A stretch of DNA of 64,000 nucleotides from Pseudoflavonifractor sp. An44. Lineage in GTDB: Bacteria; Bacillota; Clostridia; Oscillospirales; Oscillospiraceae. Location: contig NZ_NFIH01000003.1 in assembly GCF_002161675.1 (NCBI RefSeq), positions 1 to 64,000 on the forward strand, in the 5' to 3' direction. This document shows, piece by piece, positions 2,780 to 62,435 of the stretch. Each line of letters opens with the position of its first letter. Positions within the stretch are counted from its first letter, which is position 1. A program made the translations under genes and the position numbers. A model generated the notes under the pieces. The model saw nothing but the letters and a program-made list of their open reading frames with translations, searched no databases and was not told the origin of the DNA.

Positions 2780-3323
2780 AACCAGTGTCCCCGCCGGGGA
2801 CGCTCCGCTGGGCCCGATTTCTCGCCGATGAGAAATCGGGGAAAGAATCGCCAAAGGCGGGGCCTTCCCCCGCCTTGTGGAATCCACCCCGCGGTACTGG
2901 GAGCCCCTGCGTCCTCCTTGTTTCGGCCCTTGGCATGATAGGGTCACATAGATGGCGTGGAAATTCCACAGAAAGCACCGACTTCTCTGACAAATACTAC
3001 TTCTACTGCCAGGGCCTCACCCTGGTGCACCGCTGTTCCCAGCTGTCGGTGGCCTGGCTCCCGGCGGCGGGAACGCCGCTTGGCCAGGGTAGGCCCGGAC
3101 CTGGAAACTGCCCAGCCATAGGGCCAGCTGCAAAGGTGGCTGGGTGTAGTGGCAGTGACAGGGGCCACAGCAAGGGTGACGGGCCGAACACCAGCTTGAC
3201 GCAGTTCCAACCTCGTACCCCAGGGAGGTCCTTAGGGGGGAACGCCCTAAGCGGGTTTTGGTTTCTTTTGCCCGCTCAAAAGAAACCCCCAGCGGGAAGC
3301 GTCCCCACCAGGCTGGAAGCCGG
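2780..3323. repeat. Repeat family A, long copy 1 (structured, ~540 bp)
   Basis: This fills most of the 700-bp gap between the ABC fragment and the terminator at 3381. It aligns over nearly its whole length with 39301-39843, and its two ends align with 53655-53794. The ends (GGGGACGCTCCGCTGGG near 2797-2813 and CCCAGCGGGAAGCGTCCCC near 3288-3306) pair with each other. Inside lie a perfect hairpin CCCGATTTCTC/GAGAAATCGGG, the hairpin GGTTTCTTTT/AAAAGAAACC, and several G+C-rich stems. Open frames inside do not keep a common frame between copies, so it looks non-coding. It is either a structured RNA gene or a MITE-like mobile element. Confidence 0.75.
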
Positions 3324-8815: not shown

Positions 8816-9241
8816 ATGCGGGACACAAGACCCCTGGTGGTGGTGGTGGACGGCCACGGCGGCGGCATGGGCAAGGCCCTGGTGGCTCGGCTGAGAGAGC
8901 GGCTGCCCCAGGTACACGTGCGGGCGGTGGGCACCAACTCCGCCGCCACCGAGGCCATGCTCAAGGGGGGAGCCGAGGACGGGGCCACCGGAGAGAATGC
9001 GGTGATTTTCAATGTGGGAAAGGCGGACTTCGTGGTGGGGTCCGTGGCCATCCTCATGGCTAACGGCCTCATGGGGGAGATCTCCCCCCGTATGGCCCAG
9101 GCGGTGGGGGACAGCTCTGCCATCAAGGTGCTCATCCCCGCCAACCGCTGCGGCATCCGCATCGCCATGGGGGGCGAGCAGCCCCTGCGCCGCTATTTGG
9201 ACGACTGTGTGGACCTGATTGCCGCCGAGCTGCAAACCTGA
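8816..9241 (+). CDS. DUF3842 family protein
   Basis: A 141-residue cytoplasmic protein of the DUF3842 type, a small family common in Clostridia with no established function. It begins with a hydrophobic strand and a Gly-rich loop, VVVVDGHGGGMGK, at about residues 8-20, which resembles a nucleotide-binding turn, and contains FNVGKADFVVGSVAILMANG in the middle. There is no signal peptide or membrane segment. The start follows GAGGAGACGAC. It is monocistronic, with its own promoter, and is followed by a family B repeat. The function is unknown. Confidence 0.8.
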   Translation: MRDTRPLVVVVDGHGGGMGKALVARLRERLPQVHVRAVGTNSAATEAMLKGGAEDGATGENAVIFNVGKADFVVGSVAILMANGLMGEISPRMAQAVGDSSAIKVLIPANRCGIRIAMGGEQPLRRYLDDCVDLIAAELQT

Positions 9242-9248
9242 ACAAAAA

Positions 9249-9452
9249 GCCCTCGGCAGAGTTTCCCCGCCCGCAGGCGGGGAAATAAATTGAAATCTGT
9301 TTTTTTCGGGGACATGCGCATCGAAAAAAACACATCTCAGCCCGCCAGTGTGTAATCGGGTCGCCCTTTGACCCGATTATGCATGCAGCGGGCTGCATCC
9401 CCTCGAAAAAATGCTGGCATTTTTGAGAAGCGTGTCGAACTTTTCGACACGC
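9249..9452. repeat. Repeat family B, copy 1 (structured, ~178-bp core plus 3' hairpin)
   Basis: The core is 9249-9427. It starts GCCCTCGGCAGAG and has hairpin 1 (CCCCGCC/GGCGGGG), the linker AAATAAATTGAAAT, hairpin 2 (TTTTTTCG/CGAAAAAA around GGGGACATGCGCAT), a long stem CAGCCCGC/GCGGGCTG enclosing hairpin 3 (ATCGGGTC/GACCCGAT), and a final AAAAATGC/GCATTTTT hairpin. A further hairpin GCGTGTCGAA/TTCGACACGC follows at about 9429-9452. Other copies are at 18023, 22741 (inverted) and 62193. The 372-bp gap before the next gene holds this element and a promoter. Confidence 0.8.
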
Positions 9453-9468
9453 TAGAGGCCTGCCTTGG

Positions 9469-17934: not shown

Positions 17935-17976
17935 AAAATCCCCGGTTGGATGCTCCTGCATCCAACCGGGGATTTT
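17935..17976 (+). terminator. Intrinsic terminator of the bgl operon
   Basis: AAAATCCCCGGTTGGATGC and GCATCCAACCGGGGATTTT form a 19-bp stem with a short loop. Confidence 0.9.
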
Positions 17977-18022
17977 AGATTATCCAAAAGGCAAAAGTTC
18001 GTGGGGGGCTTAGGGTAAATAG

Positions 18023-18200
18023 GCCCTCGGCAGAGTTTTCCCATCCGCAGATGGGAAAATAAATTGAAATCCGTTTTTCCCGGGGACATGCGCATCGGGA
18101 AAAACACATCTCAGCCCGCCAGTGTGGAATTGGGTCGCCCTTTGACCCAATTATGCATGCAGCGGGCTGCATCCCCTCAAAAAAATGCTTGCATTTTTTT
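18023..18200. repeat. Repeat family B, copy 2
   Basis: The same order of elements as copy 1, with changed but still complementary arms: hairpin 1 is CCCATC/GATGGG, hairpin 2 is GTTTTTCCC/GGGAAAAAC, hairpin 3 is ATTGGGTC/GACCCAAT, and the final hairpin is AAAAAAATGC/GCATTTTTTT. The loops CGCA, GGGGACATGCGCAT and GCCCTTT are unchanged. It fills the gap between the converging bgl operon and the U32 gene, and its final hairpin could also end both transcripts. Confidence 0.8.
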
Positions 18201-18208
18201 GATTACTT

Positions 18209-19420
18209 TTAGGAGTTGGGGCGGCAGGCCCGCACCACCGACAGGGGGGGCACCGGGCGAGGGAGCTTCATGTGAAATACCATCTGCGGGTGCCGGGGCT
18301 GGGCCAGGGTGAAGCCCTCCCCGTCGGTCATGAGGGGCGCGGTGAGGGGGAAGGCGGGCACATCGGGGCCCACCACTTCGATCTGGTCCCCGGCGGTGAA
18401 CTTGTTGCGCAGGGAGAGGGTGGCGTTGCCGTCCTGGTCGCAGTCGGTGACGATGGCCAGCACCTGCCAGTCCCGGATGTACCGGGCGGAGTCGGTGTAC
18501 TGCCCCGGCTGGCCGTAGTAGAAGCCGGTGGAGTAGTGGCGGTGGCTGACCTTGTCCACCTCCGCTCGCCAGATGGGCTCCAGGGGCTTGCCCTCCACCG
18601 CAGCGTCAATGGCGTGGCGGTAGGCGGCGGTGGTCATGGCGGCGTAGTAGGCGCTCTTGGCCCGGCCCTCGATTTTCAGAGAGTCCAGACCCGCCTGAAG
18701 CAGCTCGGGCACGTGGTCGATCATGCACATGTCCCGGCTGTTCATGATGAAGGTCTCGCCGTTTTCCTCGAAGACGGGGAAGTACTCCCCAGGCCGCTTC
18801 TCCTCCATGAGGGCGTACTGGTAGCGGCAGGGCTGGGCGCAGGCGCCCCGGGCGGCATCCCGCCCGGTCATATAGTTGGACAGCAGGCAGCGGCCGGAGT
18901 AGCTCACGCACATGGCGCCGTGGACAAAGGCCTCCACTTCCAAATCACGGGGGGCCTTGGCGCAGATCTCCGCCACCTCGTCCAGGGACAGCTCCCGGGC
19001 CAGGATGACCCGCTTGGCGCCCAGGTCGTGCCACACCCGGGCCATCTCATAGTTGGTGATGCCCGTCTGGGTGGACATGTGCACCTCCACATGGGGGGCG
19101 TAGCGGTGGGCCAGGCTCAGCACGTCCACGCCTGCACTGATGACGGCGTCCACGCCGATGGACTCCAGAAATTCCAGGTACTCGGGCAGACGGGCGATCT
19201 CATCGTTGCGGGCCAGGGTGTTGCAGGTCACATGGACCCGCACCCCCTTGTCGTGGGCCAGCTGCACGGCCTGGGTCATCTCGTCCCGGTCGAAGTTGCC
19301 GGCAAAGGCCCGCATGCCGAAGGCGTTGCCCGCCAGATACACGGCGTCAGCCCCGTAGGCCAGGGACATGGTCAGACGTTCCATGTCCCCGGCGGGGGAT
19401 AATAACTCTACGTTTTTCAT
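18209..19420 (-). CDS. Peptidase U32 family protein (tRNA hydroxylation TrhP type)
   Basis: A 403-residue U32 family protein. The N terminus MKNVELLSPAGDMERL and the central signature from AFVHGAMCVSYSGRC through GACAQPCRYQY carry the four conserved cysteines of the family. Members of this type (E. coli TrhP/YegQ, Bacillus YrrN/YrrO) act in forming 5-hydroxyuridine at the tRNA wobble position; a true peptidase activity is doubtful for most. The C-terminal beta-barrel region typical of the shorter TrhP type is present. It overlaps the end of mltG by four bases, so the two are probably cotranscribed. Confidence 0.85.
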   Translation of the reverse strand: MKNVELLSPAGDMERLTMSLAYGADAVYLAGNAFGMRAFAGNFDRDEMTQAVQLAHDKGVRVHVTCNTLARNDEIARLPEYLEFLESIGVDAVISAGVDVLSLAHRYAPHVEVHMSTQTGITNYEMARVWHDLGAKRVILARELSLDEVAEICAKAPRDLEVEAFVHGAMCVSYSGRCLLSNYMTGRDAARGACAQPCRYQYALMEEKRPGEYFPVFEENGETFIMNSRDMCMIDHVPELLQAGLDSLKIEGRAKSAYYAAMTTAAYRHAIDAAVEGKPLEPIWRAEVDKVSHRHYSTGFYYGQPGQYTDSARYIRDWQVLAIVTDCDQDGNATLSLRNKFTAGDQIEVVGPDVPAFPLTAPLMTDGEGFTLAQPRHPQMVFHMKLPRPVPPLSVVRACRPNS

Positions 19421-22040: not shown

Positions 22041-22703
22041 TTATTCCAAAATCAGTTGCATAATTTCCTCATGAATGGCCTCTACGCCGCGCAGCTGGCC
22101 CTGGTCGTTGACACAGGAGATGCGCTTCCAGCCGTAGAGCTGGGCGGCCTGAGCGGCGGCCTGGGCGCAGGCAGTGAGGTAGTTGTTGTCCTCCTCGTGG
22201 ATGTCCGCCTGGGTGTGGGTCGCCGCCTCCCGGCGGCGGAGGTTGGCCACCGCCAGATGGGTGGGCATATCCAGCCAGATCACCTGGTCGGGGCTGGGCA
22301 GGCCCATGCGCTGGTACTCCAAATCAAAGAGCCAGTGGAAAAACGCCTCCCGCTGGTCCTCCGGCAGCTTGGAGGCCTGATGCACGGCGTTGGAGGTGGT
22401 GTAACGGTCCATCACCATCAGTCCTCCAGCTTCATAATAGGCCCCCCACTCCTGCTTGTACCCGGCGTACCGGTCCACAGCAAAGAAGGTGGAGGCGGCA
22501 TAGGCGTTGACATCGTCGGGATGGGAGCCGAAGGCGCCCCCCAGATACATCCGCACCAGGGCCGAGGATTCCTCCCGGTAGCGGGGATAGACGGTGGTAC
22601 GGAATTCCCGCCCCGCCTCATTCAGTGCCTGACAGCACAGTTGAAATTGGGTGGACTTTCCCGAGCCGTCCGTTCCCTCAAACACGATCAGTTTTCCAGC
22701 CAT
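22041..22703 (-). CDS. tmk: Thymidylate kinase
   Basis: A 220-residue P-loop kinase phosphorylating dTMP to dTDP. The P-loop FEGTDGSGKST lies at about residues 8-18, the DRY-type motif is VMDRYTTSNAVHQ, and the lid-region arginines are in NLRRREA. The stretch after the P-loop is somewhat unusual for a housekeeping Tmk (TVYPRYREESSALVRMYLGG, typical of a clostridial sub-branch), so a deoxynucleoside-kinase-like variant is possible. The start at 22703 is fixed by AAGGAGGT seven bases upstream. It is first in an operon with DJ-1 and 5-FCL. Confidence 0.87.
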   Translation of the reverse strand: MAGKLIVFEGTDGSGKSTQFQLCCQALNEAGREFRTTVYPRYREESSALVRMYLGGAFGSHPDDVNAYAASTFFAVDRYAGYKQEWGAYYEAGGLMVMDRYTTSNAVHQASKLPEDQREAFFHWLFDLEYQRMGLPSPDQVIWLDMPTHLAVANLRRREAATHTQADIHEEDNNYLTACAQAAAQAAQLYGWKRISCVNDQGQLRGVEAIHEEIMQLILE

Positions 22704-22740
22704 GGGGCTGACCTCCTTGGGCATACCTATCTATATCTCG

Positions 22741-22917
22741 AACATGCCAGCATTTTCTCGAGGGGGATGCAGCCCGCTGCATGCACAATTGGGTCAAAGG
22801 GCGACCCAATTCCACACTGGCGGGCTGAGCAGTGTATTTTCCCATGCGCATGTCCTGGGAAAATACGTGATTTCAATTTATTTTCCCATCTGCGGATGGG
22901 AAAACTCTGCCGAGGGC
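22741..22917. repeat. Repeat family B, copy 3 (inverted relative to copies 1, 2 and 4)
   Basis: Read on the minus strand it has hairpin 1 CCCATC/GATGGG, hairpin 2 GTATTTTCCCA/TGGGAAAATAC, hairpin 3 AATTGGGTC/GACCCAATT and the outer stem CAGCCCGC/GCGGGCTG. The final hairpin is AAAATGC/GCAT with a shortened right arm. It lies between tmk and the ABC operon promoter. Confidence 0.8.
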
Positions 22918-23060
22918 TGCTGGGTGATGCGAGATGATGGGGCTTCTTTACCATGAAGTTTTTTGGCAATCTACCATTGAACAGTATATCATACTCCCAT
23001 GGGAAAGTCCATGCCCGGCCAAGTTGTTTCCCTTTCGTTCACAAATGTGTAAATCCCCCC

Positions 23061-26048: not shown

Positions 26049-26260
26049 TGATGGACTTCTTGGGCATCTGGCGTAGGGGAGGGGCTTGCCCCTCCCGAAT
26101 CCCCCAGGGCAAGGCCAGGGTAGACACGGGCCGGGCAAGCCACGGCCCCTACCACCGTCTGCCGGGAATCCGACGTTATATAAATCCGTGCCGCTCTGGC
26201 GGCACACCACACCTATTCACTATTACCTATTACTTCTTACTTTCCAAAAATCCCGGGCAG
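26049..26260. repeat. Intergenic mosaic of small repeats
   Basis: There is no gene in this stretch. It holds a hairpin GGGAGGGGC/GCCCCTCCC with flank GGCGTAGGG (a related copy is near 53605), a GGGCCG...CGGCCC segment, and from about 26186 an ATCCGTGCCGC...GCGGCACACC hairpin followed by TATTCACTATTACCTATTAC. The last unit is present in inverted orientation at 29306-29372. Confidence 0.5.
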
Positions 26261-26305
26261 GCAGTAGAAGTTAGTGAATAGGGAAGAGGGAAAAAGGAAT
26301 AAGTA

Positions 26306-26337
26306 AAAATCCCGAACGCATTCGCATTCGGGATTTT
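26306..26337 (-). terminator. Terminator of the tRNA-Thr/tRNA-Tyr transcript
   Basis: On the minus strand ATCCCGAATGC and GCGTTCGGGAT arms are followed by TTTTTAC. The hairpin is related to those at 29759 and 29817. Confidence 0.8.
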
Positions 26338-26422
26338 TGGTGGAGGAGGATGGATTCGAACCATCGAAGTCGAAGACAACAGATTTACAGTCTGCCCCCT
26401 TTGGCCACTTGGGTACTCCTCC
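26338..26422 (-). tRNA. tRNA-Tyr (anticodon GTA)
   Basis: An 85-nt class II tRNA with the 7-bp acceptor stem GGAGGAG/CTCCTCC, anticodon loop ACTGTAAAT, a long variable arm, the T-loop GGTTCGAATCC and an encoded CCA end. Confidence 0.95.
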
Positions 26423-26441: not shown

Positions 26442-26517
26442 TGGAGCTGGTGGACGGATTCGAACCCCCGACCTGCTGATTACAAATCAGCTGCTCTACC
26501 AGCTGAGCTACACCAGC
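26442..26517 (-). tRNA. tRNA-Thr (anticodon TGT)
   Basis: A 76-nt tRNA with acceptor GCTGGTG/CACCAGC, D-arm GCTCAGCTGGTAGAGC, anticodon loop TTTGTAA giving TGT, T-arm GGGGGTTCGAATCC and encoded CCA. It is transcribed before tRNA-Tyr from the same promoter. Confidence 0.95.
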
Positions 26518-29129: not shown

Positions 29130-29216
29130 GCCGGTGTGATGGAATTGGTAGACGTAGTGGACTCAAAATCCACCGGTGGCGACACCGTGCCGGTTCGAGT
29201 CCGGCCACCGGCACCA
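29130..29216 (+). tRNA. tRNA-Leu (anticodon CAA)
   Basis: An 87-nt class II tRNA with acceptor GCCGGTG/CACCGGC, anticodon stem GTGGA/TCCAC around CTCAAAA (anticodon CAA), variable arm TGGCGACACCGTG, T-loop GGTTCGAGTCC and encoded CCA. Confidence 0.95.
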
Positions 29217-29255
29217 AAAATCGACAAGCACCGTCAGGGGCTTGTCGATTTTTAC
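29217..29255 (+). terminator. Terminator after tRNA-Leu
   Basis: AAAAATCGACAAGC and GCTTGTCGATTTTT arms lie directly after the tRNA CCA end. Confidence 0.9.
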
Positions 29256-29305
29256 TTATTCGCTATTCACTTTTCACTCTTCACTAAACTGGATGGGTCG
29301 ATTTT

Positions 29306-29372
29306 TGGAAGTGAATAAGTAATAGTGAATAGTGAAGAAGTAAGGTGTGCCGCCAGGCGGCACGGATTTTAT
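29306..29372. repeat. Inverted partner of the 26186-26260 repeat
   Basis: Read on the minus strand it has ATCCGTGCCGC...GCGGCACACC, then a TTCACTATTCACTATTAC run and TTCCAAAAATC, the same order as at 26186-26255. The two copies face each other about 3.1 kb apart. Confidence 0.6.
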
Positions 29373-34427: not shown

Positions 34428-34460
34428 CAACCGCCGAAAAAAGGACTAAACTGGCATGTT

Positions 34461-34546
34461 GACAGGGGAGCTCCAGGGAAGGAGCTGAGAGGCAGGTATA
34501 TCCTGCGACCCTTAACCTGATCTGGGTAATGCCAGCGTAGGGAGCA
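34461..34546 (+). promoter_or_regulatory. TPP riboswitch (THI element)
   Basis: The conserved THI box parts are present: CTGAGAGGCAGG near 34485, and GACCCTTAACCTGATCTGGG followed by TAATGCCAGCGTAGGGA (34507-34543), closed by GGGGAGC at the left. It binds thiamin pyrophosphate and, through the terminator at 34560-34595, turns off the downstream thiamin-precursor transport genes. Confidence 0.96.
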
Positions 34547-34559
34547 TCCGTGTTTTGTC

Positions 34560-34595
34560 ATGCCCCGCCGGTATTGCCGGCGGGGCATTTTTTAT
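34560..34595 (+). terminator. Terminator controlled by the TPP riboswitch
   Basis: ATGCCCCGCCGG and CCGGCGGGGCAT arms and a run of six Ts, 14 bp after the aptamer and 18 bp before the first gene. Confidence 0.92.
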
Positions 34596-39300: not shown

Positions 39301-39843
39301 CCCCTGGCAGGGGACGCGCTCCGCTGGGCCCGATTTCTCAGCGATGAGAAATCGGGGAAAGAATCGCCAAAGGCGGGGCCTTCCCCCGCCTTGTGGAATC
39401 CACCCCGCCGGTACTGGTTGGAGTGTGCGCCGTTCTATTTTCAGCCCTTGGCCCGGTGAGGTCACATGGATGGCTTGGCGTTCTATGGGGGGTATCTACT
39501 TCTCTGCTGGAGCGTCCATCTACCGCCAGGGCTTTACCTTGGTGAACCGCTGTTCCCAGCTACCGGATGCCTGGTTCCCAGCGGCGGGAACGCCGCTTCT
39601 CCAAGGTAGGCCCGGGCATGGAAACCACCTAGCTATAGGGCCAGCTGCCCAAGATAGCCTGGTGTGGTGGCACAAACAGGGGCCGCAGCAAGGGTGACGG
39701 GCCGAATAGAGACTTGACGCAGGCCCAGCCTCGTACCCCAAGGGAGGTCCTTAGGGGGGAACGCCCTAAGCGGGTTTTGGTTTCTTTTGCCCGCTCAAAA
39801 GAAACCCCCAGCGGGAAGCGTCCCCACCAGGCTGGCAAGCCGG
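39301..39843. repeat. Repeat family A, long copy 2
   Basis: This fills the pyrG-ilvE gap and is nearly colinear with 2780-3323. The 5' hairpin CCCGATTTCTC/GAGAAATCGGG is kept, and its loop changes from GCCGAT to AGCGAT. Internal stems differ by paired changes; for example CAGCCAT...GTGGCTG in copy 1 corresponds to GCTAT...ATAGC here. The block GGGGCCRCAGCAAGGGTGACGG and the block around TCCTTAGGGGGGAACGCCCT are invariant, as expected for loops or binding sites. Confidence 0.75.
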
Positions 39844-53654: not shown

Positions 53655-53794
53655 CCCTGGCAGGGGAGACGCGCTCCGCTGGGCCCCATTTCTTAGCGAT
53701 AAGAAATGGGGGAACGCCCTAAGTGGCTTTTCGTCCATTTTGGCCAGTCAAAATGGACCCCAGCGGAGCGTCCCCCGCCAGGCTGGCAAGCCGG
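53655..53794. repeat. Repeat family A, short internally deleted copy 3
   Basis: 140 bp containing only the two ends of family A. The outer stem (CCTGG..GGGGAGACGC and GCGTCCCCCGCCAGG) is kept. Hairpin 1 is CCCCATTTCTT/AAGAAATGGGG, and the second is GTCCATTTTG/CAAAATGGAC, different in sequence from the long copies but perfectly paired. The approximately 400-bp middle between the GGGG after hairpin 1 and GAACGCCCTAAG is absent. The rest of the 650-bp tatD-thrS gap holds the tatD terminator, a small hairpin repeat near 53605, and the thrS promoter and T-box. Confidence 0.8.
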
Positions 53795-53856
53795 CACCTG
53801 AGACATTGGAGGAGGATGATCCCTCCCGGAGGGAGCCGATACGGTGCACCCTACCC

Positions 53857-62096: not shown

Positions 62097-62192
62097 TCCG
62101 TGTCACCTTCCTCTATACATGTATTGAAAATGGGGTTTTGTGACGGCAACGTCAAAATAAAATGGATAACGACAAATCGCAGCGACAAAAAG

Positions 62193-62397
62193 CCCTCGGC
62201 AGAGTTTTCCTGCCTGCTGGCGGGAAAATAAATTAAAATCCGTTTTTTCCGGGGACATGTGCATCGGAAAAAACACTTCTCAGCCCGCCAGTGTGGAATC
62301 GGGTCGTCCTTTGACCCGATTATGCATGCAGCGGGCTGTAACTCTTCGAAAAAATGCTGGCATTTTTGAGAATCGTGTCGAACTGGTTCGACACGAT
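62193..62397. repeat. Repeat family B, copy 4 (core plus 3' hairpin)
   Basis: The core is 62193-62370, with hairpin 1 CCTGCC/GGCGGG, hairpin 2 GTTTTTTCC/GGAAAAAAC (loop GGGGACATGTGCAT), hairpin 3 ATCGGGTC/GACCCGAT and the final AAAAATGC/GCATTTTT. Like copy 1 it is followed by an extra hairpin, here TCGTGTCGAA/TTCGACACGA; the terminal pair is G-C in copy 1 and T-A here. Confidence 0.8.
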
Positions 62398-62435
62398 AAA
62401 CGCTCCTGGAATCCCAGCGATTCCAGGAGCGTTGC
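62398..62435 (-). terminator. Terminator after the SPFH gene
   Basis: AACGCTCCTGGAATC and GATTCCAGGAGCGTT form a perfect 15-bp stem downstream of the SPFH gene; the T-run is short. Confidence 0.7.

Follow-up and report, generated by a model that had tools for sequence, protein, structure and literature searches.

Family B: a probable IS1182-type miniature element of terminator hairpins with a conserved RNA core

A short, hairpin-rich repeat, here called Family B, recurs four times in the window (the whole stretch of 64,000 nt analyzed here, from Pseudoflavonifractor sp. An44), and the locus at its first copy raises the question of what kind of entity it is. A sequence-only reading of this DNA had offered two answers: a multicopy small RNA family or a structured miniature inverted-repeat transposable element (MITE). 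The second answer is borne out by the element's ends, target duplication and empty sites, and a structured RNA is supported as well; an independently transcribed small RNA is not, no promoter-like signal being enriched upstream on the RNA strand. Taken as a whole, Family B is probably a MITE moved by IS1182-family transposases and carrying an RNA module under selection, whose likeliest role is as a cis-acting segment of mRNAs. This confidence belongs mostly to the mobile element with its selected RNA, and the cis role is put forward more tentatively.

Copies in the window and extent of the element

Repeat alignment confirmed copies at 9249, 18023, 22741 (inverted) and 62193. The three on the plus strand share 84–91% identity across 200 nt; the fourth (22736–22918, minus) forms an inverted repeat with them. 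Stem variants had also been read correctly: CCCCGCC/GGCGGGG, CCCATC/GATGGG and CCTGCC/GGCGGG in hairpin H1; TTTCG/CGAAA, TTCCC/GGGAA and TTTCC/GGAAA in H2; and ATCGGGTC/ATTGGGTC in H3.

Copy 1 (9248–9427, plus) begins with a conserved RNA core (9248–9397; H1 at 9262–9285, H2 at 9299–9331, H3 at 9338–9395) that starts 6 nt past the stop codon of a DUF3842 gene (8816–9241). The core is followed by an AT-rich hairpin whose loop is closed by TGC/GCA (H4, 9402–9427) and by a right-end hairpin that includes the right inverted repeat TTCGACACGCT (H5, 9429–9453); the left end is missing. The span 9249–9427 first proposed for this copy does hold one, but the element is longer, extending through the 3′ hairpin and, elsewhere, through a 5′ part of ~65 nt. 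Copy 2 (17977–18202, plus) has a degenerate left end, AGATTATCCAAAA, a core at 18022–18171 and H4 at 18176–18202. Immediately 5′ of it lies its target, a terminator hairpin (17940–17971, plus) that belongs to the 6-phospho-beta-glucosidase gene upstream. The right end of this copy has been lost, and the copy stops ~7 nt short of where a convergent U32-peptidase gene (18209–19420, minus) has its stop codon. Copy 3 (22736–22972, minus) comprises a left end, AGATTGCCAAAAAAC (22958–22972), the core and H4 (22737–22762). It lies within the 5′ leader of a gene resembling that for thymidylate kinase (22041–22724, minus, in the list of ORFs), whose ribosome-binding-site-like AAGGAGG and ATG fall within 22699–22718. 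Copy 4 (62186–62372, plus; core from 62192, H4 at 62345–62372) retains the right-end hairpin with its inverted repeat (H5, 62373–62396, plus), which is adjoined by a terminator-like hairpin, AACGCTCCTGGAATCCCAGCGATTCCAGGAGCGTT (62399–62433, plus).

H4 had been taken for a built-in terminator. No U tract follows H4, so it lacks the canonical form of a terminator. The true terminators lie beyond the element and are the host's duplicated hairpins.

Several other features share the window. A separate repeat family of ~500 nt has long copies at 2794–3316 and 39310–39835 and a partial one at 53665–53816; its hairpins include CCCGATTTCTC..GAGAAATCGGG and GGTTTCTTTTG..CAAAAGAAACC. Inverted repeats at 26196–26311 and 29247–29356 flank a stretch with tRNA genes (26341–26422 and 26445–26517, minus; 29130–29213, plus), and an Rfam search placed a TPP riboswitch at 34454–34560.

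Across all aligned copies, the complete element is ~265 nt (263–272 nt end to end), with a conserved upstream part, AGACTGTCAAAAAACCTCATGTC-ATGCAAGAAGGACAGAT-ATCTTGCAT, and a right-end hairpin of the form AGCGTGTCGAAC...TTCGACACGCT. Its termini constitute an inverted repeat, AGnnTGTCRAA...TTCGACAnnCT, seen in cleaner form (CAGGCTGTCGAAAAA / TTTTTCGACAAGCT) in a more distant genus (L145, G197). No transposase gene is present, as complete copies of 263–272 nt are too short to encode ~480 aa.

The genome of the window (2.75 Mb, 51 contigs) yielded 42 matches, or ~40 copies, and the earlier extrapolation to hundreds per genome was therefore wrong. Within the order, model R1 detected the core in 25 of 148 genera (40 of 295 genomes), and copy numbers range from 1 to dozens among related genomes. 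In family f7 (G042, G066, G085 and G130; L143, L147, L148, L150, L177 and L178), the core retains its 5′ half but has a different 3′ half, and the ends differ too; no IS1182 ends were recognized in copies of families f7 and g7. Diverged copies also occur in two contigs from human feces labelled as bacteriophage (MT838656.1, 2262–2402; MT836333.1, 6608–6714).

Terminator hairpins and IS1182-type ends

Where both ends of the element survive, its flanks reveal the target. The same terminator hairpin was found on both sides in 9/17 two-ended loci of the first set examined, and in 17 of 31 two-ended copies overall; the remainder, about half, have unlike flanks. Similarity scores between left and right flanks reached at least 14 in 23/89 copies, vs. 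0.11% of mismatched flank pairs. The flanking repeats are locus-specific palindromes of 22–35 nt that mostly start 0–1 nt from the element ends. Duplicated hairpins were also seen at contig ends of G018 once the halves were matched (L108/L118, L109/L114), and similar duplications occur in other genera, e.g., at L132, L137, L138, L145, L162, L164 and L175. At L007 (1770–1913), a second, diverged core lies directly 3′ of the duplicated terminator, so that one terminator is common to two elements.

Empty and filled sites in related genomes, a comparison that the sequence-only reading had proposed, tell the same story of a single terminator at empty sites. For example, two terminators surround the element at L057 (strain An85), and one is present at the corresponding An386a site (L108). 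Likewise, L021 vs. L058 and L092 vs. L220 each pair an empty site bearing one terminator with an older filled site from which one repeat has been lost. Copies without a right end often come within ~10 nt of the stop codon of the gene to their right, a placement that deletion of this end together with its terminator would produce.

A candidate mobilizer was found in the window genome through a DDE_Tnp_1_6 search. This 1,520-bp IS (L185, 451–1970; ends AGACTGTCGAAAAAC / AGACTGTCGAAGAAC) encodes a 484-aa IS1182-family transposase (NF033551, 385.9 bits, cut-off 270; PF13751, PF05598) and sits between duplicated 33-nt hairpin copies of GGTGTGGGGCGGGAAGATTCCCGCCCCACACCG, the right-hand copy being the reverse complement. 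In G016, another complete IS repeats this arrangement, ends and duplicated hairpin alike, and other IS1182 ends likewise come after hairpins. The motif AGnnTGTCRAA is common to both ends of the element and of the IS in L185/L257 and L259, and the terminator palindrome is duplicated by the element and by the two complete IS copies alike. Matching ends, flanking hairpin duplications and one-terminator empty sites thus strongly support Family B as a non-autonomous IS1182-type element, i.e., a MITE, very likely moved in trans by an IS1182-family transposase, to judge from these sequence features.

The relationship to the IS is confined to its margins. Element and IS have the ends in common, and perhaps the right-end hairpin too, but no trace of the IS was seen in the element's interior: the model gave no match to the RNA core in ten IS1182 loci. 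Not every MITE is required to derive its interior from a parent IS. Nor do intact mobilizers track the element closely, since only 5 of 38 genomes in the genus sample have an IS1182 match over the cut-off (21/38 have some match). The element-rich G018, G024 and G020, all fragmented assemblies, yielded no IS1182 match that passes the family cut-off, and the mobilizer is therefore unseen in these genomes.

The proposed mechanism is as follows. IS1182-family DDE transposases would act on the ends in trans and insert the element at the base of a rho-independent terminator stem-loop, with duplication of the whole hairpin. Since the entire hairpin would be copied, a terminator would be left on each side of a new insertion, and the insertion should do little harm. 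The ~150-nt module between the ends would be selected as a plus-strand RNA, and would be kept once copies lose their ends and become fixed.

A covarying RNA core and its retention at fixed sites

Three hairpins make up the core of ~150 nt: H1, H2 and H3, the last of them bipartite and with an internal loop that is conserved. H4 comes after them. In an alignment of 96 distinct sequences that was fitted to the structure, which favors the pairing result, paired cells amount to 98.2%, vs. 80.8% after shuffling (0/500 shuffles), and 23/25 pairs show two-sided changes. The covariation score for the 96 sequences was 0.490 vs. 0.163 for shuffles (0/500), and slid structures drop to 38–54% paired. In a MAFFT alignment of 46 sequences, which was not structure-fitted, two-sided changes were still present in 13/25 pairs. 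The covarying stems first noted in four copies thus persist in a genome-wide search and covariance test, where covariation is massive in the large alignment and far above shuffles and slid partners. Rfam gave no match at the gathering score, weaker matches being noise. In a check for pseudoknots, mutual information among 94 sequences gave no strong pair beyond the named stems and their immediate extensions; by eye, a putative pseudoknot might be drawn in the 5′ part.

The pairs also differ by strand. On the plus strand, G.U outnumbers A.C by 35 to 6 with one near-fixed G.U pair excluded (the p-value of 5e-6 is only indicative, because cells are not independent), and the middle of H3 holds three more near-fixed or common G.U pairs. 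This bias points to the plus strand as the RNA strand; an RNA from the reverse strand is disfavored by the same asymmetry. Together, covariation and the asymmetry between G.U and A.C support a conserved structured RNA.

Sites shared between species show how the core fares after insertion. Core identity is 96–100% vs. 61–64% for the left flank in the L036 set, 95–100% vs. 70–79% in the L026 set, 97% vs. 78% for L092/L205 and 82–84% vs. 72–76% in the L033 set. At L035/L225, where the flank is coding, the core is not better conserved (85% vs. 87%). Five pairs have changed on both sides in the L033 set, and five at L035/L225 with none broken. Since the core is usually better conserved than its flank and compensatory changes accompany it, structure is kept after recognizable ends are lost. 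Gene conversion between copies could account for part of this conservation, but it poorly explains the L033 set because the H3 and H4 sequences there are peculiar to that site.

Two of these sites have recognizable surroundings. A single copy is fixed in four species at L036, L198, L224 and L240, between genes that we take, from their translated ends read by eye, to resemble those for crotonase and 3-hydroxybutyryl-CoA dehydrogenase of the butyrate pathway. The copy at L035 and L225 lies directly 3′ of a gene with what by eye is presumably a dnaA-like end, and sequence with TTTTCCACA motifs occurs 3′ of this copy.

What the RNA may do, and comparison with known systems

Position and the missing promoter signal make a role in cis, within mRNAs, the most likely function, although we would give it slightly under an even chance; it is still more likely than the alternatives. 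Upstream of the core, sigma-70-like signals show no enrichment: their mean best score is 7.72 on the RNA strand and 8.25 on the opposite one. As a segment of 3′ UTRs, intercistronic regions or 5′ leaders, the core might influence stability, processing or attenuation, in a manner comparable with BOX elements. Orientation to genes is mixed: by codon-position scores, 8 copies in the window genome lie with the neighboring gene and 17 against it, a tandem orientation bias that is suggestive only. Many older copies are antisense to the gene beside them, at odds with a simple role in sense 3′ UTRs.

The same evidence bears on the rival idea of trans-acting small RNAs that have their own transcription and were spread by transposition. 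Strong covariation, the plus-strand G.U bias and conservation in 25 genera would all suit such molecules, and MITE-derived small RNAs are known in Coxiella (PMC10969869); yet the lack of promoter enrichment and of a canonical terminator, and copy numbers of 1 to dozens between related genomes, make this reading unlikely. It is somewhat less probable that the module serves the element itself, as a transcript or folded strand that takes part in transposition and might, for example, guide the transposase to target hairpins or regulate it. The core is indeed joined to ends of the IS1182 type in two families and in several genera, and element and IS both target hairpins, but the IS1182 elements searched move without a core, and end-less copies retain the structure.

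If selection acted on DNA hairpins, as cruciforms or single strands, every stem could form, and IS1272, of the IS1182 family, does target DNA secondary structures (PMC4923244, PMC5678879). G.T and A.C should then be equally frequent, each being the other as read from the complementary strand; the excess of G.U over A.C, with the further G.U pairs of H3, leaves this a poor prospect. Comparably improbable is an ancient folded RNA, widespread in this order of gut bacteria, that became cargo of IS1182-type ends, aids movement, for instance by locating or handling terminator hairpins, and was later reused by host genes. Least credible of all, and very improbable, are static tandem terminators or repeat recombination without transposition: recombination between copies would give the unlike flanks of about half of the two-ended copies, but the duplications abut the inverted repeats exactly, and empty sites hold one terminator. 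The preferred reading is thus still an IS1182-type MITE with unusual cargo, an RNA that appears to remain under selection after the element is fixed.

Family B unites two things usually found apart, a mobile element landing in terminators and a cargo RNA covarying across at least 25 genera, and offers a testable instance of transposition supplying gene ends with RNA parts. To our knowledge, the palindromic repeats SPRITE, ERIC, Correia and REP/BIME have no multi-hairpin core common to several genera. They resemble Family B in their palindromes and have effects on mRNA ends, attenuation and RNase cleavage, and duplication of terminator hairpins is not described for them in the available part of PMC3049150. 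BOX elements of Streptococcus pneumoniae are short, modular, co-transcribed repeats with predicted RNA structure and suspected mobility, over-represented between convergent genes (PMC3049150). Family B is likewise modular and structured and may be co-transcribed, the likeness in structure being one of description. It may work like BOX without being a member of that family: the range of BOX, RUP and SPRITE is largely confined to pneumococcus and its close relatives (PMC3049150), whereas Family B spans an order, and its mobilizer and target mechanism are identifiable. In Coxiella, small RNAs derive from QMITEs, for which the text consulted in PMC5896051 and PMC10969869 reports no order-wide covarying structure. 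Thousands of candidate RNAs have been listed from human microbiomes (PMC8040213). A literature search found no paper on an IS1182 MITE with an RNA core.

The closest relatives by mechanism are the insertion sequences of the IS1182 family, IS1272 among them. Resident IS1182 elements have the ends of Family B, which differs in its lack of a transposase gene and its added RNA core. Targets in both systems are stem-loops, often terminators, without a common sequence. IS1272 targets stem-loops and terminators and deletes or replaces them (PMC4923244, PMC5678879), in contrast to Family B, which duplicates them. Stem-loop duplication is one branch of the IS1272 model (PMC5678879), and Family B supplies natural examples of this alternative outcome.
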